A stretch of DNA of 64,000 nucleotides. Source: Nitrosopumilaceae archaeon. Lineage in GTDB: Archaea > Thermoproteota > Nitrososphaeria > Nitrososphaerales > Nitrosopumilaceae. The stretch spans positions 1-64,000 of the forward strand of contig UYNY03000017.1 of assembly GCA_900620265.3 (NCBI GenBank). Direction: 5' to 3'. The notes below the pieces were generated by a model that saw only the letters and a list, made by a program, of their open reading frames with translations, ran no database searches and was not told the DNA's origin. Shown piece after piece: positions 12,849 through 26,878 of the stretch. Positions within the stretch are counted from its first letter, which is position 1. Every line of letters begins with the position of its first letter. Position numbers and translations under genes: made by a program.

Positions 12849-13166
12849 ATGAAGAGCAGGAAGGCCGTGGTGGGCGGGCGCGAGTTCCTAATCGAGGCGG
12901 CCGACTTTGAGAACGGGTGCGCAGTCTTCGTCTCGGAGGGCCCCGGCAGGCTCGGCTCGATCACCGTCTCCCTGGCGACGGGGCCGGCGCCCGTCACGGC
13001 CGAGGTGATACCGGCGCGCGCCGGATCGCTCTTCCTCCGGATGGTGGCAGAGCGGCTCAGCACCAGGCTCCGCGGGGTGGCGCTCGTCTCGCTGTATGCA
13101 AAGGGGGACCTTGGCGGCGAGGAGTCAAAGAAGCTGATGTCAGAGGTGGTGGAGCTGGTCGGATGA
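12849..13166 (+). CDS. Conserved hypothetical, possibly proteasome-assembly-chaperone-like
   Basis: A 105-residue protein without membrane segments. The pattern of short beta strands followed by SLFLRMVAERLSTRLRGVALVSLYA recalls the small PAC3/PAC4-type proteasome assembly chaperones, but this is a weak likeness and no catalytic residues are evident. ATG at 12849 follows an AATAAAAAC element at 12817-12825. Its stop overlaps the start of the UbiD gene as ATGA, so the two are translated together. Confidence 0.5.
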   Translation: MKSRKAVVGGREFLIEAADFENGCAVFVSEGPGRLGSITVSLATGPAPVTAEVIPARAGSLFLRMVAERLSTRLRGVALVSLYAKGDLGGEESKKLMSEVVELVG

Positions 13167-14497
13167 GCGACCTGCGGTCGTACCTGTCGCGCGTCGACCG
13201 CGCAGGCCAGCTCTGGCGCGTCCCAAGGCCGGTGTCAAGGAGGTTCGAGATCGCGGCGGTGACGGCGGCCGCCGACGGGTCAAACGCCCTGCTCTTCGAG
13301 GACGTCAGGGGCGGGTTCAGGGTCGTCTCGAACCTGGTGGGGACCCGGCGGCGCCTCGAGATGGCGGTCGGGGGCGCCGGGGTGCACGCCAGGATAACCG
13401 CCGCGATGCGCGCGGCAAAGAGGCCGGGGAGGGCCCCCGGCAGGTTCATGGCAAACAGGTCCGGCGACATGCGCCGGCTCCCGGTGGTGACCCACTTTGA
13501 AAAGGAGCCGGGCCCGTTCATCACGTCCTCGGTGATATACGCCCGGAACCCCGAGACCGGGAGGCAGAACTCGTCGTTCCACAGGATGATGCCCGTCGGT
13601 AAAAAGTCCCTGACGGTGAGGATGGTCGAGGGGAGGCACCTGCACCGGTGCTTTGAGGACGCGCGGGCGCACGGCGAGGACCTGAGGGTGGCCGTCGCCA
13701 TAGGCGTGCACCCGGCCATATCCGTGGCCGGCGCGTGCCAGGCCGAGTGGGGCCGGGACGAGATGCTGATAGCAAACTCGCTGCTCGGCGGCAGGCTGCG
13801 CCTTGCCAGGCTCCCGTACTCGGGGCTCGACGTGCCGTCCGGCGCCGAGATCGTGCTGGAGGGCCGGATACGGCGCGACGCGACCAGCAAGGAGTGGATG
13901 GTCGAGATGCTGCGCACCTACGACCACGCGAGGGAGCAGCCGGTCTTTGAGCTCGAGTCCATGTACCACCGGGACGACCCCGTATACCACGACATACTGT
14001 CGGGGTACACGGAGCACCGGCTCCTTATGGGGGTGCCGGCAGAGGCAAAGCTTGCCGGCGGCCTCTCGAGGGCGTTCCGGGGCACGAGGCGCGTCACGCT
14101 CTCGGCCGGCGGGTGCGGCTGGCTGCACGCCGTGGTCCAGATCAGGAAGCGGGGCGACGGGGACCCGGGCCGCGTGATAAGGGAGGCGTTCAGGATACAC
14201 CGGTCGCTAAAGCAGGTGACGGTGGTCGACGAGGACATTGATCCGGACAGCGCAGAGTCCGTCGAGTACGCGGTGGCGACCCGGTTCCAGGCCGACCGGG
14301 ACCTGGTGGTGCTAAGGGGGGTGCGCGGCTCCAGCCTGGACCCGTCGAGCGACCAGGCGAGGCTGCGCACCGCAAAGACGGGGATCGACGCCACGCGGCC
14401 CCTCTCAAAGCGCCCCGAGGGGTTCGAGCTGGCCCGGATCCCGGGGGCGGGCCGGACAAGGCTCGGCAGGTACGTCCGGAACCTGAGCGAATCTTAA
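13163..14497 (+). CDS. UbiD-family decarboxylase, candidate anhydromevalonate phosphate decarboxylase
   Basis: A 444-residue UbiD family protein, which uses prenylated FMN to decarboxylate unsaturated acids. Family marks are the N-terminal NALLFEDVRG, SSVIYARNPETGRQN, the GRHLHRCFEDAR region, and VDEDIDPDSAESVEYAVATRFQ split around the acidic DEDID core. Most archaea make isoprenoids by a modified mevalonate route in which a UbiD homologue decarboxylates anhydromevalonate phosphate. The window also holds mevalonate kinase, isopentenyl phosphate kinase and GGPP synthase. That this is the pathway enzyme is therefore inference. Its ATG overlaps the previous stop (ATGA). Confidence 0.85.
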   Translation: MSDLRSYLSRVDRAGQLWRVPRPVSRRFEIAAVTAAADGSNALLFEDVRGGFRVVSNLVGTRRRLEMAVGGAGVHARITAAMRAAKRPGRAPGRFMANRSGDMRRLPVVTHFEKEPGPFITSSVIYARNPETGRQNSSFHRMMPVGKKSLTVRMVEGRHLHRCFEDARAHGEDLRVAVAIGVHPAISVAGACQAEWGRDEMLIANSLLGGRLRLARLPYSGLDVPSGAEIVLEGRIRRDATSKEWMVEMLRTYDHAREQPVFELESMYHRDDPVYHDILSGYTEHRLLMGVPAEAKLAGGLSRAFRGTRRVTLSAGGCGWLHAVVQIRKRGDGDPGRVIREAFRIHRSLKQVTVVDEDIDPDSAESVEYAVATRFQADRDLVVLRGVRGSSLDPSSDQARLRTAKTGIDATRPLSKRPEGFELARIPGAGRTRLGRYVRNLSES

Positions 14498-14523: not shown

Positions 14524-15432
14524 ATGCCAGACGAGGGGGCCGGCGCCAAGCCCGAAGAGACAAAGGCGGATCCCAAGCCGGCAAAGGCCGGGGCCGAAGA
14601 GCCGGCAAAGGCCGCACCAAAGCCCGAAGAGCCAAAGGCGGATCCCAAGCCGGCAAAGGCCGGGGCGGAAAAGCCAAAGGATCCCAAGCCCGCAAAGGCC
14701 GGGGCGGAAAAGCCAAAGGATCCCAAGCCCGCAAAGGCCGCACCAAAGCCCGAAGAGCCAAAGGCGGATCCCAAGCCGGCAAAGGCCGGGGCGGAAAAGC
14801 CAAAGGATCCCAAGCCCGCAAAGGCCGCCCCCAAGGAAAAGCCGGAGCAGGATCCCGGGGCCGCGGCGGAGGCGGCCGCGCTGATGGCGGAAAAGGCCGA
14901 GGCGGCGGCCAAAAAGGCGATCGAGGAGGCGCGCATCGCAAAGGAAAAGGCCGAGGCGGCCGCCGAGGCCCAGTACAAGGCGATAGCCGACGAGGTAAAG
15001 GCCGGGGCCGTAAAGAAGCCGGCCTATACCGACAAGAGGACGTCCGAGGAGATATTCAGGCGCCAGATGGGCGAGCCCGAGTTCTTCCTCGACAAGAAGG
15101 ACCGCTTCCCGAGGCCCATCCTGTCGGCCGAGGAGCAGGAAAAGATAACGAGGAAGGCAGAGGTCCCGGAGAACCACATACCCGAGTACGTCCCCGAGCA
15201 CGTGCTGAGCCCCGAGTTCGGCGGGATGTCAAACTACGAGCGCGGCGTCACGAAATACCTCGAGGACGCGCGCGCCCGCCTCGAGGCGATGCGCAAGGAC
15301 CCGGAGGCCTCGCCGGGCGACATCACCCGGGCCGAGGACGACGTCTCGTACCTCGAGTCGCTGCACGAGAACTATTACCTCGGGATGAACGTCTTTAGGA
15401 CCGCAAAGGGCGGCAGGACGAGGGCCGGCTGA
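14524..15432 (+). CDS. KP-rich tandem-repeat protein, unknown
   Basis: A 302-residue protein in two parts. Residues 1 to about 110 are a low-complexity array of PKPAKAGAEKPKD-type units, with nucleotide repeats built on AAGGATCCCAAG and GCAAAGGCC. Residues 115-165 are an Ala/Glu/Lys helix, probably coiled coil. The C-terminal 130 residues are well-behaved sequence (TSEEIFRRQMGEPEFFLDKK, GGMSNYERGVTKYLEDAR) with no recognised family. ATG at 14524 is about 26 bases from TTAAAATT at 14494-14501. The HemA-like gene starts two bases after its stop, so co-transcription is clear. A similar KPA-rich segment is attached to NuoC. Confidence 0.7.
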   Translation: MPDEGAGAKPEETKADPKPAKAGAEEPAKAAPKPEEPKADPKPAKAGAEKPKDPKPAKAGAEKPKDPKPAKAAPKPEEPKADPKPAKAGAEKPKDPKPAKAAPKEKPEQDPGAAAEAAALMAEKAEAAAKKAIEEARIAKEKAEAAAEAQYKAIADEVKAGAVKKPAYTDKRTSEEIFRRQMGEPEFFLDKKDRFPRPILSAEEQEKITRKAEVPENHIPEYVPEHVLSPEFGGMSNYERGVTKYLEDARARLEAMRKDPEASPGDITRAEDDVSYLESLHENYYLGMNVFRTAKGGRTRAG

Positions 15433-15433
15433 G

Positions 15434-16513
15434 ATGGACCGCGTGAGCTTTGACCTGATGAACGCCAGGGTCACGTTCAAGAACGTCCCGCTCCACGCGC
15501 TCTCAAAGTTCGCGTTCAAGGACGTGGCGGCCGCCGCGCGCGAGTTCATCAAGATACCCGACGTCGAGGAGTGCGTCATCGTGCAGACTGCCAGCCGCGT
15601 CGAGGTCTTCATAGTCGGCAACGTCGTCACCGGCGACACGCCGGACGGCAGGCGCCCCGAGGGCAAGGGCCTCGTGCTCAACAAGGTAAAGGAGACCTGG
15701 ATATCCCTCTCCTCGCTCGAGCAGGTGGACATCGACCACTTTGACCAGACGCTCGAGGTGTACCGCGGGGACGACGTCTACCTCCAGCTGCTCCGCCTCG
15801 CGTCCGGGATAGACTCGTTCGTGCTCGGCAAGCAGGAGGTCTTTGACGAGATAGTCCAGTCGATAGCGGCCGCAAAGGAGGCCGGGGTCTCCGGCAAGGT
15901 CACCAACCGCCTCTTTGAGAGCGTCATACGGATGGGGACCCGGATGAGGGACACCACCGGGATCGCCAACAACACCGTCTCGCTCGGGGACGTGGCCGTA
16001 AAGCTCGTCGACGAAAAGGCGGGGCTCGACGCCAAGAAGAAGGTGCTGCTGATTGGGACCGGCGAGCCGGCCGCCATGATAGCAAAGACGCTCGCAAAGA
16101 TGGGGATCGGGTTCGACGTGGCAAGCAGGACGGCCGAGCGGGCCGCCGGCTTTGCGGCCCTGCTGGGCGGCACCCCGCTGGCGTTCGAGGAGGCGCTCGC
16201 CGGCTTTGACAAGTATGACATCATCTTCGTGGCTACCACGGCGGACTACTTTTTGGTGACGTACGAGCGCATACGCCTCGTGATGGAGGAGAAGAAGAAG
16301 GGCACGCTGGTGCTTGACCTCTCCGACCCGAGGACCGTCGACGAGGGGATAACGGCCCTGCCGGGGATAAAGCTGCTCTTCCGCGACCAGGTGTACGAGG
16401 CGTACGAGGAGAGCGCCAGGGAGAAGAGGGAGATCGTGCCGGCCGTCGAGAAGATAATAGAAAAGGAGATCGTCGTGCTGTCGGCCGCGATGGGCCGGCT
16501 CGACGGCCACTAG
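15434..16513 (+). CDS. hemA: Glutamyl-tRNA reductase-like protein lacking the catalytic cysteine
   Basis: A 359-residue protein with all three GluTR domains: an N-terminal catalytic domain (RVTFKNVPLHALSKFAF), a Rossmann NADPH-binding domain (KKVLLIGTGEPAAMIAKTLA) and a C-terminal dimerisation helix. GluTR reduces glutamyl-tRNA to glutamate-semialdehyde, the first step of tetrapyrrole synthesis. The nucleophile normally lies in TCNR. Here the segment is QTASRVEVF, so the Cys is Ala53. The only cysteine in the protein is Cys48, five residues earlier. The usual LGE-QI stretch also reads LGKQEV. It may be a divergent active form or a paralogue with another role. Confidence 0.8.
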   Translation: MDRVSFDLMNARVTFKNVPLHALSKFAFKDVAAAAREFIKIPDVEECVIVQTASRVEVFIVGNVVTGDTPDGRRPEGKGLVLNKVKETWISLSSLEQVDIDHFDQTLEVYRGDDVYLQLLRLASGIDSFVLGKQEVFDEIVQSIAAAKEAGVSGKVTNRLFESVIRMGTRMRDTTGIANNTVSLGDVAVKLVDEKAGLDAKKKVLLIGTGEPAAMIAKTLAKMGIGFDVASRTAERAAGFAALLGGTPLAFEEALAGFDKYDIIFVATTADYFLVTYERIRLVMEEKKKGTLVLDLSDPRTVDEGITALPGIKLLFRDQVYEAYEESAREKREIVPAVEKIIEKEIVVLSAAMGRLDGH

Positions 16514-16516
16514 CAG

Positions 16517-17356
16517 TCAGCCGTACGACTCGAACTTTATCCCAAAGCTGCCGTCGGGGTTCTTCTCGTGCTCGGTAACGAACCCCTTGGGGCCGAGGTG
16601 CTCGATGACGCCGTCGATCGTCCCCTGGTACCCGCATATGTACACGATGGTGTTGTCGGGCGTGAGCTTTTCTCCGACCATCTCCTCGACCGGCGACAGT
16701 CCGGACTTGCCCGGCTTGAAGAACGACTCGACCCTGCCCACATGCCCCGACCACGACCTGTTGAAGAACTCCTTGGGGCGGCTTATGGCGGCCCTGTACT
16801 TGAAGTTCCACTCGGCCTCGCCGCGCCTCTTGCTCTCCATCTCAAGATCCGTGAGCATCCTCTTGTAGCTGAGCTCGTCGACATAGCTGGCCCCGTGCAG
16901 CACCATGACCTCCCTCTTGTCGCCGGTGTCGTGGAAGTGGTTGGCAAACGCGATGAACGGCGCTATGCCGGTGCCGCCGCCCACGCAGATGACGCGCCTC
17001 CCGTCCGTCCCGCCGCCCGGCAGCCTGTCGCTTATCTGCAGGGCCGTCCCGGTGGGCTCCCCTATCGAGACCTCGTCCCCGGCGCTCAGGTAGAACAGCT
17101 CGGTGGTGACCCTGCCCGGCAGCGGCTTCCTGACCCACCTTATGACGAACTCGTAATAGTCGCGGTTCTCAGGATGCGACGCTATCGAGTAGGCCCTCCT
17201 GACTATCTTCTTCTCTGACGGGATGGGGAGCCCTATGGTGAGGAACTGGCCCGTCTTGTACTCGGGGACGCCCCCGTCCGGCACCAGCCTGATTATCGCG
17301 AGGTCCTCCTTTAGGAGCTCCACGTACGTGACCTCCGCCCTCCTCTCCGCCGCCAT
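16517..17356 (-). CDS. Ferredoxin-NADP reductase family flavoprotein
   Basis: A 279-residue single-chain FNR. FAD domain: RRAYSIASHPENRDYYEF, the RxYS flavin motif. NAD(P) domain: VICVGGGTGIAPFIAF and VYICGYQGTIDGV. Such enzymes shuttle electrons between NAD(P)H and ferredoxin or flavodoxin. Two starts at 17380/17377 would lie inside the promoter. ATG at 17356 is about 29 bases from minus-strand TTAATAC at 17381-17388, and is chosen. It converges on hemA. Since the complex I here has no NADH module, a reductase linking NADPH and ferredoxin is metabolically sensible, but its partner is unknown. Confidence 0.85.
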   Translation of the reverse strand: MAAERRAEVTYVELLKEDLAIIRLVPDGGVPEYKTGQFLTIGLPIPSEKKIVRRAYSIASHPENRDYYEFVIRWVRKPLPGRVTTELFYLSAGDEVSIGEPTGTALQISDRLPGGGTDGRRVICVGGGTGIAPFIAFANHFHDTGDKREVMVLHGASYVDELSYKRMLTDLEMESKRRGEAEWNFKYRAAISRPKEFFNRSWSGHVGRVESFFKPGKSGLSPVEEMVGEKLTPDNTIVYICGYQGTIDGVIEHLGPKGFVTEHEKNPDGSFGIKFESYG

Positions 17357-17408
17357 CTGCGGGGGCCGCCGGGGCATCACGTATTAACGTTAACGCGCGG
17401 TCCGCCCG

Positions 17409-18305: not shown

Positions 18306-18881
18306 CTAGTAGAATATCTGGATCCCCATCCGTCTCATGTTGTTAAAGATCTTGTCCTGGGTGACCCCCAGCAGCTCCGAGGCGCGCCCAGAGCTGATCT
18401 TCTCCTTTTCAACCAGCGACATTATCAGGTGCTCCATATCCGGCTTGATGTCCGCGTATCCGGGGGATCCTGACGCCATCGCCGGGAACATCGCGTATAT
18501 GAAGGCCAGCATCTCCCTGTCGGTCATGCCGCCGAGGAGCTCCCTGTACTCCCCCAGCAGGCGCATGATCCTGCCGTCGATCATGCCGGTGATGCCGCCC
18601 GCGGCCTCCCTTCCCCTGCCGGTGATCGATATGCCGCCCGGGCCCTCCGACGCCATCCCAGCGTCCCTCAGGTGCTCCAGCGCGCGGTCCGCCACCCTGC
18701 CGTCCATCCCCTCCGAGTAGCCAAGCTGCCCCCTGATCCCCGGCACGTCGTCGGCCAGAAGGAAGAAGATTCCGCGCAGCTTTGCCCTCCCGTCCACGGG
18801 CCCGATGCCCAGCAGCGATACCATCTGCCTGTGGACGTCCCCGTGGAGGATATCCCTGCCGTCTGCTGCCGCCTGTCCCAT
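18306..18881 (-). CDS. A3: antitoxin-like protein, third copy, no toxin following
   Basis: A 191-residue paralogue of the proteins at 19429-20016 and 20573-21160. Residues 18-85 resemble a winged-helix module (RQMVSLLGIGPVDGRAKLRG, then ALEHLRDAGM). The C-terminus, KEKISSGRASELLGVTQDKI, has the short helix-turn-helix pattern of UPF0175-type antitoxins. ATG at 18881 is 25 bases from a TATA that contains the stop codon of the PIN gene before it. It is the most diverged of the three copies and no PIN gene follows, so it is either an orphan antitoxin or the surviving half of a module. Confidence 0.65.
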   Translation of the reverse strand: MGQAAADGRDILHGDVHRQMVSLLGIGPVDGRAKLRGIFFLLADDVPGIRGQLGYSEGMDGRVADRALEHLRDAGMASEGPGGISITGRGREAAGGITGMIDGRIMRLLGEYRELLGGMTDREMLAFIYAMFPAMASGSPGYADIKPDMEHLIMSLVEKEKISSGRASELLGVTQDKIFNNMRRMGIQIFY

Positions 18882-18902
18882 GCGCCGCCTACCGTGCGGG
18901 AC

Positions 18903-18909
18903 ATATTAA
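18903..18909 (-). promoter_or_regulatory. Promoter of A3 overlapping the T2 stop codon
   Basis: On the minus strand the sequence reads GCGGGGTTTAATATG. The TAA stop of the T2 PIN gene (18906-18908) lies inside the TATA element TTTAATA, which is 25 bases before the A3 start at 18881. The same arrangement occurs at 20039-20046. Confidence 0.6.
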
Positions 18910-19427
18910 ACCCCGCGCCCCGGATCGCCCCTCTTGGATACAGACCGCATCCTAAAGCCCTTCTCCTTTAGCCGCTCCCTGGTTCTATCTATCGTGTCCC
19001 TGTCGGTAATCCCCTTGTCCACTAGGTCGTCGAGCAGGCCGGTAAACCTGATCCCTAGACGTGACGCAAGCTTGCGCGCCGGCTCGTCGTCCAAGATACA
19101 GCGCACCACGGCCATATCAGAAAAATGCTTTTTGTACGTAAGTATAACGTCCAGCTCCCCCAGTCCGTATACGAATGCTCCCGGCTCCGATACCTCTGAC
19201 CTCAACTTGCCGATCTCCTCCAGCGTGTTTGCAACCAGTATGCGCATACTGCCCTCTGACACGTACCTACCCAGCCCACCCCGCGTGTCGGGGTCGAGTA
19301 TCTCGTGCTCCCATAGGTTGGACGGGATTACAAGATCCGAATCCAGCTTTAGCAGCATGGCCACCAGACCTGGGAGCCCGGCTTCCTTGAATATCGCGAT
19401 CAGGGCAGAGGCATCGAATATGAACAA
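18906..19427 (-). CDS. T2: PIN-domain (DUF3368-like) ribonuclease toxin candidate
   Basis: A 173-residue PIN-fold protein. MFIFDASALIAIF supplies the first acidic residue, GLGELDVILTYKK the middle acidic residue, and CILDDEPARKLASRLGIRFTG split around LDDEPAR supplies the last pair. That order is the DUF3368 layout. PIN toxins cut RNA in a Mg-dependent way. The start is a weak TTG at 19427, one base after the A2 stop, so translation is probably coupled to A2. It is clearly homologous to the protein at 20041-20571, with many substitutions between the two. Confidence 0.7.
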   Translation of the reverse strand: MFIFDASALIAIFKEAGLPGLVAMLLKLDSDLVIPSNLWEHEILDPDTRGGLGRYVSEGSMRILVANTLEEIGKLRSEVSEPGAFVYGLGELDVILTYKKHFSDMAVVRCILDDEPARKLASRLGIRFTGLLDDLVDKGITDRDTIDRTRERLKEKGFRMRSVSKRGDPGRGV

Positions 19428-19428
19428 C

Positions 19429-20016
19429 CTAATGCAAGACCTGTAGCCCCATGCGGTTCATGTTGTCTATTACCCTGTCGAGGGTGACCCCCAGCAGCTC
19501 CGCGGCGCGACCAGAGCTGATCTTCTCCTTTTTGACGAGGGCCATCACCAGGGGCTCAAGGTCTGACATTATCCTGTCGTGATCCTCCGACTCTGCCGCC
19601 ATGTCGGGGAACAGCGTGTACATGAACGCCAGCAGCTCGTCGCCCGTCAGGTCGTTGAGGGCGTCCCTGTAGGCGCCAAGCAGGCGCATTATCCACGGGT
19701 CCATCCCGCCGCGGATGGCCGCCCCTGCCTCCCTGCCGCGATCAGTGAGCGATATGCCGCCGGGGCCCTCGGTGATCATCCCCCCGGCCACCAGGTGCTC
19801 AAGGGCGTCCCTTACCACCTCGCTGTACGGGCCGTGCCGGCCGGGGGCATAGCGCAGGACGGGCCCGGCCTCCGGCACGTTGTACGTGACCAGAAACAGC
19901 ATCCCCTGCAGCTTTGCCCTGCCGTCCACGGGCCCGATGCCCAGCAGCGATACCATCTGCCTGTGGACGTCATCCCGGAGTACCTCGCCCCCCTCTAGCT
20001 CCGTCCCCTGTCCCAT
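19429..20016 (-). CDS. A2: antitoxin-like protein (winged-helix-like plus UPF0175-type tail)
   Basis: A 195-residue protein nearly identical to A1 over most of its length, but ending LLGVTLDRVIDNMNRMGLQ instead of the tail shared by A1 and A3. The N-terminal module has RAKLQGMLFLVTYNV and GRHGPYSEVVRDALEHL, reminiscent of archaeal winged-helix regulators and Panacea-like antitoxin domains; that likeness is inference. ATG at 20016 is 26 bases from TTTAATACG at 20039-20046. An ATG nine bases upstream (20025) is too close to the TATA. The PIN gene T2 follows after one base. Confidence 0.65.
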   Translation of the reverse strand: MGQGTELEGGEVLRDDVHRQMVSLLGIGPVDGRAKLQGMLFLVTYNVPEAGPVLRYAPGRHGPYSEVVRDALEHLVAGGMITEGPGGISLTDRGREAGAAIRGGMDPWIMRLLGAYRDALNDLTGDELLAFMYTLFPDMAAESEDHDRIMSDLEPLVMALVKKEKISSGRAAELLGVTLDRVIDNMNRMGLQVLH

Positions 20017-20038
20017 GGCCGGCATGTAGCCCGGGCCG

Positions 20039-23781: not shown

Positions 23782-23866
23782 CGCGGCGGGCCCCCGCCGG
23801 CGATCGCGGCCCCCGGCCGGGACCCGTCCCGAAATTTAATATAGGAACCGGGGGCGGGGCCCGGCA

Positions 23867-25414
23867 GTGCATTCTAAAAAGATCGACGAGCACGCGAGGG
23901 TCGTGGCTGAGGCGGCCCTCGGGGGCGGCGAGGCGCGGATAAGGGCCCAGCACGAAAAGGGCAAGCTGACCGCCCGGGAGCGGATAGGCATACTGCTTGA
24001 CGGGGGCACCTTCTCCGAGGTGGATCAGCTTGCGACCCACCACTACCACGAGTACGGCATGCAGGACAAAAAGTTCCACACGGACGGCGTGGTGGGCGGC
24101 AGCGGCACCATAAACGGGCGCCGCGCCTTTGTCTTTGCGTACGACTTTACGGTGCTAGGCGGCACGCTGAGCCAGATGGGCGCCAAAAAGATAACAAAGC
24201 TGATGAGGATGGCCGTCTCGACCGGCTGCCCGATAATAGGGATCATGGACTCGGGGGGCGCGCGCATCCAGGAGGGGATAATGAGCCTCGACGGGTTCGC
24301 CGACATCTTTTACCACAACCAGGCCGCCTCGGGGGTGGTCCCGCAGATAACCGCCAGCATCGGCCCGTCGGCAGGCGGGTCCGTCTACTCGCCGGCGATG
24401 ACCGACTTTGTCGTGATGGTTGAAAAGGCCGGCAGCATGTTCGTCACGGGGCCGGACGTCGTAAAGACCGTGCTCGGCGAGGAGATCTCGTTCGAGGACC
24501 TCGGGGGCGCGGCCGCGCACGGGACCAAGAGCGGCGTGGCGCACTTTGTCGCAAGGAACGAGTACGAGTGCATGGACCGCATAAGGCGGCTGCTCTCGTT
24601 CATCCCGCAGAACAGCGGGGAGGGCCCGCCGGCGGCCGAGTGCAGGGACGACCCGGGCAGGACGGAGCCGGGGCTCGCCGGCATACTGCCGGAGAACGCG
24701 CAGCAGCCCTACGACATGAAGGAGGTGATCACGTCCGTGGTGGACGGCGGCGACTTTTTCGAGGTGCACGAGGGCTTCGCGCCCAACATCGTGGTCGGGT
24801 ACGCCAGGCTCGGCGGCGCGTCAGTCGGCATCGTGGCAAACAACCCGATGCACCTTGCGGGCGCGCTCGACATCGACTCGTCGAACAAGGCGGCCAGGTT
24901 CATCAGATTCAACGACGCGTTCAACATACCGATAGTCACGCTGGTTGACACGCCGGGGTACATGCCGGGCTCGCAGCAGGAGCACGGCGGGATCATCCGG
25001 CACGGCAGCAAGCTGCTGTACGCGTACTGCGAGGCGACGGTCCCGCGCGTCACGCTGGTGGTCGGCAAGGCGTACGGGGGGGCGTACATCGCGATGGGGA
25101 GCAAGAACCTCAGGACGGACGTCAACCTGGCGTGGCCGACGGCAAGGTGCGCCGTCCTCGGCGGCGAGGCGGCAGTCGGCATCATGTTCAGGAAGGAGCT
25201 GGCGGCGGAATCGGACCCCGAGGGGCTCCGGAGGAGGCTGGTATCGGAGTTCACCGAAAAGTTCGACAACCCGTACGTGGCCGCGTCGCACGGGACGGTC
25301 GACTCGGTGATAGACCCGGCGTCAACCCGGCCCGCCCTGATAGGGGCGCTCCGGATGCTGGCCGGCAAGAGGCGCGAGGGCGTGAGGAGGAGGCACGGGA
25401 ACATCAACCTGTGA
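23867..25414 (+). CDS. Acetyl-CoA/propionyl-CoA carboxylase, carboxyltransferase subunit
   Basis: A 515-residue PccB-type carboxyltransferase with both crotonase-like halves: MGAKKITKLMRMAV, GIMDSGGARIQEG, SASIGPSAGGSVYSPA-like SIGPSAGG and FVTGPDVVKTVLGE, then VDTPGYMPGSQQEHGGIIRHG. It moves the carboxyl group from biotin to acetyl- or propionyl-CoA. In Thaumarchaeota this enzyme serves the 3-hydroxypropionate/4-hydroxybutyrate cycle, since these archaea lack fatty-acid synthesis of the bacterial kind. GTG at 23867 is about 28 bases from TTTAATATA at 23835-23843. The next two genes supply the other subunits. Confidence 0.93.
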   Translation: MHSKKIDEHARVVAEAALGGGEARIRAQHEKGKLTARERIGILLDGGTFSEVDQLATHHYHEYGMQDKKFHTDGVVGGSGTINGRRAFVFAYDFTVLGGTLSQMGAKKITKLMRMAVSTGCPIIGIMDSGGARIQEGIMSLDGFADIFYHNQAASGVVPQITASIGPSAGGSVYSPAMTDFVVMVEKAGSMFVTGPDVVKTVLGEEISFEDLGGAAAHGTKSGVAHFVARNEYECMDRIRRLLSFIPQNSGEGPPAAECRDDPGRTEPGLAGILPENAQQPYDMKEVITSVVDGGDFFEVHEGFAPNIVVGYARLGGASVGIVANNPMHLAGALDIDSSNKAARFIRFNDAFNIPIVTLVDTPGYMPGSQQEHGGIIRHGSKLLYAYCEATVPRVTLVVGKAYGGAYIAMGSKNLRTDVNLAWPTARCAVLGGEAAVGIMFRKELAAESDPEGLRRRLVSEFTEKFDNPYVAASHGTVDSVIDPASTRPALIGALRMLAGKRREGVRRRHGNINL

Positions 25415-25420
25415 TATGCC

Positions 25421-26878
25421 ATGATCGAAAAGGTGCTAGTTGCAAACAGGGGCGAGATAGCGCTGAGGGTGATGCGCACGTGCTCCGCCCTCGGCATCAG
25501 GACGGTCGCCGTCTATTCCGACGAGGATGCAAACTCGCTTCACGTCAAAAAGGCATCAGAGTCTTACCACATCGGCGAGGCGGCCCCCGCAAAGTCGTAC
25601 CTCAACCAGGAGAGGATCCTCGAGGTGATAACGTCGTCGGGCGCCGACGCCGTCCACCCGGGGTACGGGTTCCTCTCCGAGAACGACGACTTTGCCGCGC
25701 TCTGCGAGAGGAACGGGGTCACGTTCATCGGGCCGCCCGCCTCCTCGATGGAGCTCTGCGGTGACAAGATGAAGTGCAAGGCGGCGCTGACAAAGGCGGG
25801 CGTGCCGACGGTCCCCGGCAGCCCGGGGCTCGTAAAGGACGCCGACGAGGCCGCCTCGATAGCGGGCGATATAGGGTACCCCGTCATGCTAAAGTCCGTC
25901 TACGGGGGCGGCGGGCGCGGGATCCGCATAGTGACGAACGAGCAGGAGCTGCGCAAGGCGTACGAGTCGGTGACCGGCGAGTCGATAGCGGCAGTCGGCA
26001 AGTCGGCCATACTGGTCGAAAAGTTCCTCGAAAAGACGCGCCATATAGAGTACCAGATGGCGCGCGACTCGCAGGGCAACTCTGTCCACATATTCGAGCG
26101 CGAGTGCTCGATACAGCGGCGCAACCAGAAGCTCATCGAGCAGACGCCGTCCCCCGTGGTGGACGCCGAGACGCGCGAGAGGGTGGGCAGGCTGGTCTGC
26201 GACGCGGCCGACGCGGTCGGGTACGGGAACCTCGGGACGGCCGAGTTCCTGCGCGCCGACAGCGGCGAGTTCTACTTTATCGAGATAAACGCCCGGCTCC
26301 AGGTGGAGCACCCGATTACGGAGATGGTCTCGGGGCTGGACCTCGTAAAGCTGCAGCTTGACATCGCCAACGGCGAGCCGATCCCCTTCAAGCAGTCGGA
26401 CCTTGCGATGAACGGCTATGCCATCGAGTGCAGGATAAACGCAGAGGACACGTTCCTTGACTTTGCGCCGTCCACGGGGCCCGTCCCCGAGGTGGAGCTG
26501 CCCGCCGGCCCCGGCGTCAGGTGCGACACGTACCTGTACCCGGGGTGCACCGTCTCGCCGTTCTACGACTCGCTGATGGCAAAGCTGGTCACCTGGGGGC
26601 AGACGTTCGACGAGTCGCGGACCCGGATGCTCTCGGCGCTCGGCGACTTTTACGTGCAGGGGGTCGAGACGTCCATACCGCTCTACAGGACGATACTGGC
26701 GTCCGACGAGTACAGGAGGGGCGAGCTCTCGACTGACTTCCTGAAGCGGCACGGGATGATAGACAGGCTGGCGGCCGACATCAGGCGCGAGCGCGGGGAA
26801 AAGGCCGACGCGGCGGCCGCGGCCGCCCTGCTGCACGCCGAGAGCGCGCGGGCCGGCGCCGCGGGGGGGACCTGTTGA
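25421..26878 (+). CDS. accC: Acetyl-CoA/propionyl-CoA carboxylase, biotin carboxylase subunit
   Basis: A 485-residue biotin carboxylase with the ATP-grasp fold. MIEKVLVANRGEIALRVMR starts the N-domain, KSVYGGGGRGIR is the glycine-rich ATP loop, and FIEINARLQVEHPITEM holds the catalytic Glu/Asn/Arg set. It carboxylates biotin with bicarbonate and ATP. The C-terminus adds a short Ala-rich tail. ATG is at 25421, six bases after the carboxyltransferase stop. Its stop overlaps the next start as TTGA. Confidence 0.94.
   Translation: MIEKVLVANRGEIALRVMRTCSALGIRTVAVYSDEDANSLHVKKASESYHIGEAAPAKSYLNQERILEVITSSGADAVHPGYGFLSENDDFAALCERNGVTFIGPPASSMELCGDKMKCKAALTKAGVPTVPGSPGLVKDADEAASIAGDIGYPVMLKSVYGGGGRGIRIVTNEQELRKAYESVTGESIAAVGKSAILVEKFLEKTRHIEYQMARDSQGNSVHIFERECSIQRRNQKLIEQTPSPVVDAETRERVGRLVCDAADAVGYGNLGTAEFLRADSGEFYFIEINARLQVEHPITEMVSGLDLVKLQLDIANGEPIPFKQSDLAMNGYAIECRINAEDTFLDFAPSTGPVPEVELPAGPGVRCDTYLYPGCTVSPFYDSLMAKLVTWGQTFDESRTRMLSALGDFYVQGVETSIPLYRTILASDEYRRGELSTDFLKRHGMIDRLAADIRRERGEKADAAAAAALLHAESARAGAAGGTC

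Follow-up and report, generated by a model that had tools for sequence, protein, structure and literature searches.

The gene at positions 15434-16513 of the window (the whole stretch of 64,000 nucleotides of Nitrosopumilaceae DNA analysed here) encodes a paralogue of glutamyl-tRNA reductase (GluTR), which we call HemA2, that lacks the catalytic cysteine of this enzyme, and the same genome carries a canonical copy, HemA1. We consider that HemA2 is probably a neofunctionalised pseudo-GluTR that forms a module with FNR2, a ferredoxin-NADP reductase-like flavoprotein, and an adaptor-like partner protein, and that supplies the NADP(H)-type redox or regulatory part of it. What is new here is the HemA2 subfamily together with its gene context, the fold itself being already known; the open-access literature, the only literature that could be searched, yielded no account of a GluTR paralogue without the Cys in these archaea.

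HemA2 and the canonical HemA1 of the same genome

The gene and the parts of its product that bear on the argument are the following:

15434-16513, + strand: hemA2, a cysteine-less GluTR paralogue of 359 amino acids (from the ORF translation, Pfam and the structure model); the product consists of an N-terminal GluTR catalytic-type domain, an NADPH-type Rossmann domain and a truncated spinal helix, with no dimerisation domain
15572-15574, + strand: codon of Cys47, the sole cysteine of the window HemA2, common to the canonical HemA of relatives and absent from two HemA2 orthologues
15590-15592, + strand: codon (gcc) of Ala53, at the catalytic-Cys position of GluTR, the motif being TASR for TCNR
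15626-15673, + strand: HemA2-specific insert, residues 65-80, with invariant Pro70, Asp71, Arg73 and Leu80, missing from canonical HemA
15803-15853, + strand: SGIDSFVLGKQEVFDEI, counterpart of the GluTR SGLDSMVLGEEQILGQ segment, with the Glu and both Gln gone and Ser128 retained
16055-16075, + strand: GTGEPAA, the nucleotide-binding loop of the NAD(P)H-type domain, its glycines invariant (Pfam and alignment)
16244-16246, + strand: codon of Asp271, invariant in 30 of 30 HemA2 and Pro in 28 of 30 HemA1

The Pfam profiles GlutR_N (PF05201; 91.5 bits, with a cut-off of 27) and Shikimate_DH (PF01488, the nucleotide-binding Rossmann domain; 70.8 bits) matched the window HemA2, and GlutR_dimer (PF00745) gave no match in it. 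The structure model reached a mean pLDDT of 85.9, the insert loop 65-78 being of low confidence, and the closest solved structures in the structure search were the GluTR of Methanopyrus and Arabidopsis, in agreement with the sequence profile search. HemA2 has in common with GluTR HemA/GtrR (1gpj of M. kandleri; 4n7r/5yjl of Arabidopsis) the N-terminal catalytic-type fold, the NADPH-type Rossmann domain and the start of the spinal helix, but the catalytic Cys, the Glu and Gln residues of GE-QILGQ and the dimerisation domain have no counterpart in the window protein, and the active-site His is variable across HemA2. The protein further differs from GluTR in its extra insert, in the change from Pro to Asp271 and in its score of 185 bits, which falls below the cut-off of the NCBIfam GluTR equivalog TIGR01035 (209.55). 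Its likeness to shikimate dehydrogenase and NAD(P)-binding Rossmann proteins is restricted to the nucleotide-binding domain, whereas the catalytic domain is GluTR-type.

Translation of the open reading frame bore out two claims of an earlier note on this DNA, namely that TCNR had become TASR with Ala53 and that the LGE-QI segment was changed, the window protein having GKQEVFDE in place of GE-QILGQ. In addition, the conserved active-site His that precedes the SGLDS block is Gln. The note had also described a lone cysteine, Cys48, five residues before Ala53; the cysteine is indeed single, but it is Cys47 and lies six residues before Ala53.

HemA copies were counted by family and protein searches, and the profile search recovered two GlutR_N loci in the whole genome, one being the window HemA2 and the other lying on contig C69 (G000:C69, locus L001). 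The HemA1 encoded there has TCNR, GEEQILGQ and GlutR_dimer intact, clears the TIGR01035 cut-off (269.7 against 209.55 bits) and has 42% identity with HemA2 across the part that both possess. It is adjoined by hemB and by a NAD-binding_7 (precorrin-2 dehydrogenase-like) gene, and its contig also encodes HemD and a class-III aminotransferase that was the best hemL match, although below the hemL cut-off. HemA1 is the direct paralogue of HemA2, and only HemA1 has the TCNR motif, GEEQILGQ, GlutR_dimer and the hemB neighbour. The genome search for hemL, hemB and a second hemA that the earlier note had proposed therefore returned a canonical hemA, the adjoining hemB and a hemL-like gene. The note's idea that the window gene might be the sole hemA copy, with 5-aminolevulinate (ALA) made by an altered route, is ruled out by the canonical HemA1 in this 96%-complete genome, a second canonical hemA being among the findings that the note itself had named as refuting it. 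The GC content of the HemA1 contig (66-68%) agrees with that of the window (67%), so that a contaminant origin of HemA1 is unlikely. The best explanation is that glutamate semialdehyde is still made by the canonical HemA1. The loss of GluTR signature residues from HemA2 and the presence of a canonical HemA elsewhere in the genome both favour another suggestion of the note, that the window protein has a different function.

Residue changes, origin and selective constraints

In a first alignment of 74 HemA2 proteins none had Cys at the catalytic site, the residues listed there including Ala in 64, Ser in six, Thr in two and Glu in one. The catalytic Cys was likewise found in none of the 30 diverse HemA2 from which the tree was built, compared with 28 of 29 HemA1 (one gap), and across HemA2 the site is occupied by A/S/T/E/N/Q/G and others. 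Because the Cys is absent across the orthologues, TASR in the window is not a quirk of assembly or sequencing. Alanine itself is not strictly conserved, and this variability fits a loss of the old chemistry and not the fixation of a new residue at the site.

Comparison of the 30 diverse HemA2 with HemA1 identified the residues at which constraints had changed. Among those constant in HemA1 and relaxed in HemA2 are the catalytic Cys with the Asn that follows it, the His and, within GE-QILGQ, the Glu and both Gln. Retained in HemA2 are Arg55, Glu57, Ser128, the GTG loop, Arg236, Asp295, Ser297, Pro299 and Arg300, and invariant in HemA2 only are Pro70, Asp71, Arg73, Leu80, Asp101, His102, Asp104, Gln105 and Asp271. 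Arg232, the Arg of SRT, is Met or Lys in many orthologues. The GlutR_dimer domain is still present in some HemA2 (frames of 414-432 amino acids) and gone from the Nitrosopumilus-type HemA2 and that of G083 (about 358 amino acids).

The equivalent of Cys47, proposed earlier (as Cys48) to substitute for the catalytic Cys, is present in all 17 canonical, TCNR-bearing HemA of ammonia-oxidiser relatives and is kept in most HemA2, but Val takes its place in G083 and G061 HemA2 (ISGVVLVQTASR, ISEVLILQTGSR). Cys47 therefore goes back to the ancestor, and its role as a replacement nucleophile is ruled out.

Within the Nitrosopumilaceae, HemA2 is carried by almost every genome of the window's genus and is also found in several further genera, and in our sample of 201 genomes of the order it was confined to this family; the named matches belonged to Nitrosopumilus, Nitrosarchaeum and Nitrosopelagicus. 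Among the 97 good Nitrosopumilaceae genomes, 62 carry HemA2 and 35 do not. In some of the ocean's most abundant archaea, members of this clade probably carry the annotation glutamyl-tRNA reductase, which would be functionally wrong. A maximum-likelihood tree built from 65 HemA proteins grouped all 30 HemA2 in one clade (support 100/100) nested in the Nitrosopumilaceae HemA1, and a single duplication is therefore the simplest account of their origin. A structure search against viral proteins, with a viral origin in mind, gave no useful match. In our reading, a single hemA duplication inside the Nitrosopumilaceae gave rise to a second copy, from which the catalytic Cys disappeared together with the glutamyl-thioester chemistry around it. 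The fold of GluTR and its nucleotide-binding domain were retained in this copy, as were Arg55, Glu57 and Ser128 of the pocket, while it gained invariant residues of its own and dropped the dimerisation domain in some lineages, that of the window included.

Median dN/dS values were 0.144 for Nitrosopumilus HemA2, 0.113 for Nitrosarchaeum HemA2 and 0.067 for HemA1, and HemA2 is thus under strong purifying selection that is somewhat relaxed in comparison with HemA1. HemA2 would be a clean example of a duplicate of an essential enzyme in which the chemistry has been lost and selection maintained. As a separate observation from the tree, the HemA1 of the window genome (L001 709-1956, - strand; genome of about 67% GC) sits on a branch of length 0.83, long in comparison with the median of 0.16, and is unusual in composition, with its active-site motifs intact.

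Gene neighbourhood and the acyl-CoA carboxylase operon

The neighbouring genes of interest are these:

14524-15432, + strand: adaptor-like partner gene, directly upstream, its stop lying just before the hemA2 start (15432/15434)
15028-15126, + strand: conserved motif of the long partner, TDKRTSEEIFRR.MGEPEFFLDKKDRFPRPIL, which is kept where the partner is linked to HemA2 and lies outside the region matching the short homologues
15154-15423, + strand: C-terminal domain of the partner, homologous to a small protein whose gene, in other ammonia-oxidising archaea, immediately precedes the acetyl/propionyl-CoA carboxylase operon
16517-17380, - strand: FNR2, an FAD/NAD(P)-binding ferredoxin-NADP reductase-like flavoprotein, convergent neighbour of hemA2
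23840-25411, + strand: carboxyltransferase subunit of acyl-CoA carboxylase, a context gene that in several related genera neighbours HemA2/FNR2 on the downstream side
25415-26875, + strand: biotin carboxylase subunit, context gene

The partner has a Lys/Ala/Pro-rich N-terminus, the conserved motif in its middle and a conserved C-terminal part of about 150 amino acids; Pfam and NCBIfam gave no match for the long partner of the window, and its structure model, of poor quality (pLDDT 66), is hardly informative on binding. It lies immediately 5' of hemA2 on the same strand in 91 of the 94 loci, the remaining three beginning at or near a contig end.

In the genomes without HemA2, a short homologue of the adaptor C-terminal domain (about 90-145 amino acids) stands directly 5' of the carboxyltransferase and biotin carboxylase genes. 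The same order was found in two further families of the order (f3 and f8), with weaker matches in f2, and the short homologue was not found in the sampled families f4-f7 and f9-f17. Short homologues of 70-150 amino acids preceding the carboxylase operon were noted at loci L184, L186, L189, L191, L192, L194-L196, L199, L200 and L203-L208. This short protein is possibly an unrecognised carboxylase subunit or adaptor. In three HemA2-carrying genera, represented by G072, G130 and G083, HemA2 and FNR2 are situated between the adaptor and the carboxyltransferase gene, and in the window about 8 kb separate the hemA2 block from the carboxylase genes (23840-26875). In the HP/HB cycle, CO2 is fixed by acetyl/propionyl-CoA carboxylase (PMC8287830), and the HemA2 module may possibly operate near CO2 fixation. 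If the module is real, HemA2, FNR2 and the adaptor would be a candidate set for redox control or for reductive steps near the carboxylase of this cycle.

An FNR gene was present near HemA2 in 87 of the 94 loci, on the opposite strand in 71 and on the same strand in 16; rearrangement has left it across the adaptor from HemA2 in a few loci. The window genome has a second copy, FNR1 (G000:C85:7897-8751), 62% identical to FNR2. At least two FNR were found in 55 of the 62 good genomes with HemA2, compared with none of the 35 without it (Fisher p = 9e-20, kinship being ignored); the other seven HemA2-positive genomes have one FNR. Within the genus g37 alone, at least two FNR were present in 7 of 7 genomes with HemA2 and 0 of 4 without. 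FNR2 is not adjacent to HemA2 in some genomes, G134 at least; in that genome (L188 5917-9029) it adjoins an ORF of 712 amino acids that by eye resembles an ADP-forming acyl-CoA synthetase, a type of enzyme that belongs to the HP/HB cycle as well.

The window locus is also rich in unrelated housekeeping genes (RFC, ArgH and inositol phosphatase-like). Directly 5' of the adaptor there is a UbiD-family gene (12917-14497, + strand), which is not at that position in the related HemA2 loci examined. Further along, at 18306-20025 (- strand), two similar DNA-binding-like ORFs (18306-18881 and 19429-20025) flank a PIN-like ORF (18906-19427, MFIFDASALIAIFKE...), an arrangement that by eye looks like the toxin-antitoxin type.

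Readings of HemA2 function

We infer that HemA2 would still bind NADP(H) and act with FNR2 and the adaptor in one module. HemA1 would keep making glutamate semialdehyde, and HemA2 would have become the redox or regulatory part of this set. Counting against this reading are the replacement of Arg232 in many orthologues, the genomes in which FNR2 is not adjacent or one FNR was counted, and the unrelated housekeeping genes of the locus.

The main rival explanation, which we regard as possible though rather unlikely, is that HemA2 is a pseudo-subunit regulating ALA synthesis, pairing with HemA1, occupying tRNA-Glu or sensing haem in the manner of the non-catalytic partners of plant GluTR. The descent of HemA2 from the HemA1 of the same lineage, the presence of HemA1 alongside it in most genomes and the dimerisation domain kept by many HemA2 are all consistent with such pairing. 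This domain, however, has been entirely lost in the window's lineage and some others, and in the loci read hemA2 is away from the hem genes, whereas HemA1 adjoins hemB; HemA2 co-occurs instead with FNR2 and the adaptor.

A further proposal, which we advance tentatively and as improbable, gives the whole module a role at the carboxylase: HemA2, FNR2 and the carboxylase-linked adaptor could together constitute a lineage-specific NADPH-dependent reductase of acyl-CoA (malonyl- or succinyl-CoA) or an NADPH-gated regulator of acetyl/propionyl-CoA carboxylase. Were this so, archaeal CO2 fixation would have taken over a GluTR fold, whose Cys could be spared with a substrate that is already a thioester. 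More doubtful still is that HemA2 is by itself an active NADPH-dependent reductase of the HP/HB cycle acting on a ready-made thioester, malonyl-CoA or succinyl-CoA, for which its own Cys would be dispensable because the substrate is already a thioester. GluTR chemistry indeed converts a thioester to an aldehyde with NADPH (PMC7242693); in the literature consulted, several reductases of the HP/HB cycle were without an assigned gene, and the malonyl- and succinyl-CoA reductases of N. maritimus had none in a 2018 model (PMC6038301). The link to the carboxylase-operon protein and the new invariant residues, Asp271 and His102 among them, point in the same direction. Nevertheless, the old pocket is variable in HemA2, and HemA2 is missing from other families of the order with the same carboxylase operon and from about one third of the good Nitrosopumilaceae genomes. 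HemA2 cannot, therefore, be the general acyl-CoA reductase, and the cycle presumably runs without it in these relatives.

That HemA2 is still a glutamyl-tRNA reductase, through Cys47 or by non-covalent chemistry, is very improbable. The GluTR fold, Arg55 and Ser128 are kept, as is Cys47 in most HemA2; chlamydial GluTR is naturally short, and the missing C-terminus alone would not exclude activity. However, Cys47 was inherited from a HemA1 that is active through its catalytic Cys and has been replaced by Val in two HemA2, other residues of the site (Glu, Gln and His) have likewise been lost or relaxed, and the score misses the GluTR equivalog cut-off. Least probable of all is a decaying gene without function, to which the loss of catalytic residues and of one domain might point: a pseudogene is ruled out by the dN/dS values, and the strong purifying selection is accompanied by frames intact across the family, by lineage-specific invariant residues and by a conserved, operon-like gene order.
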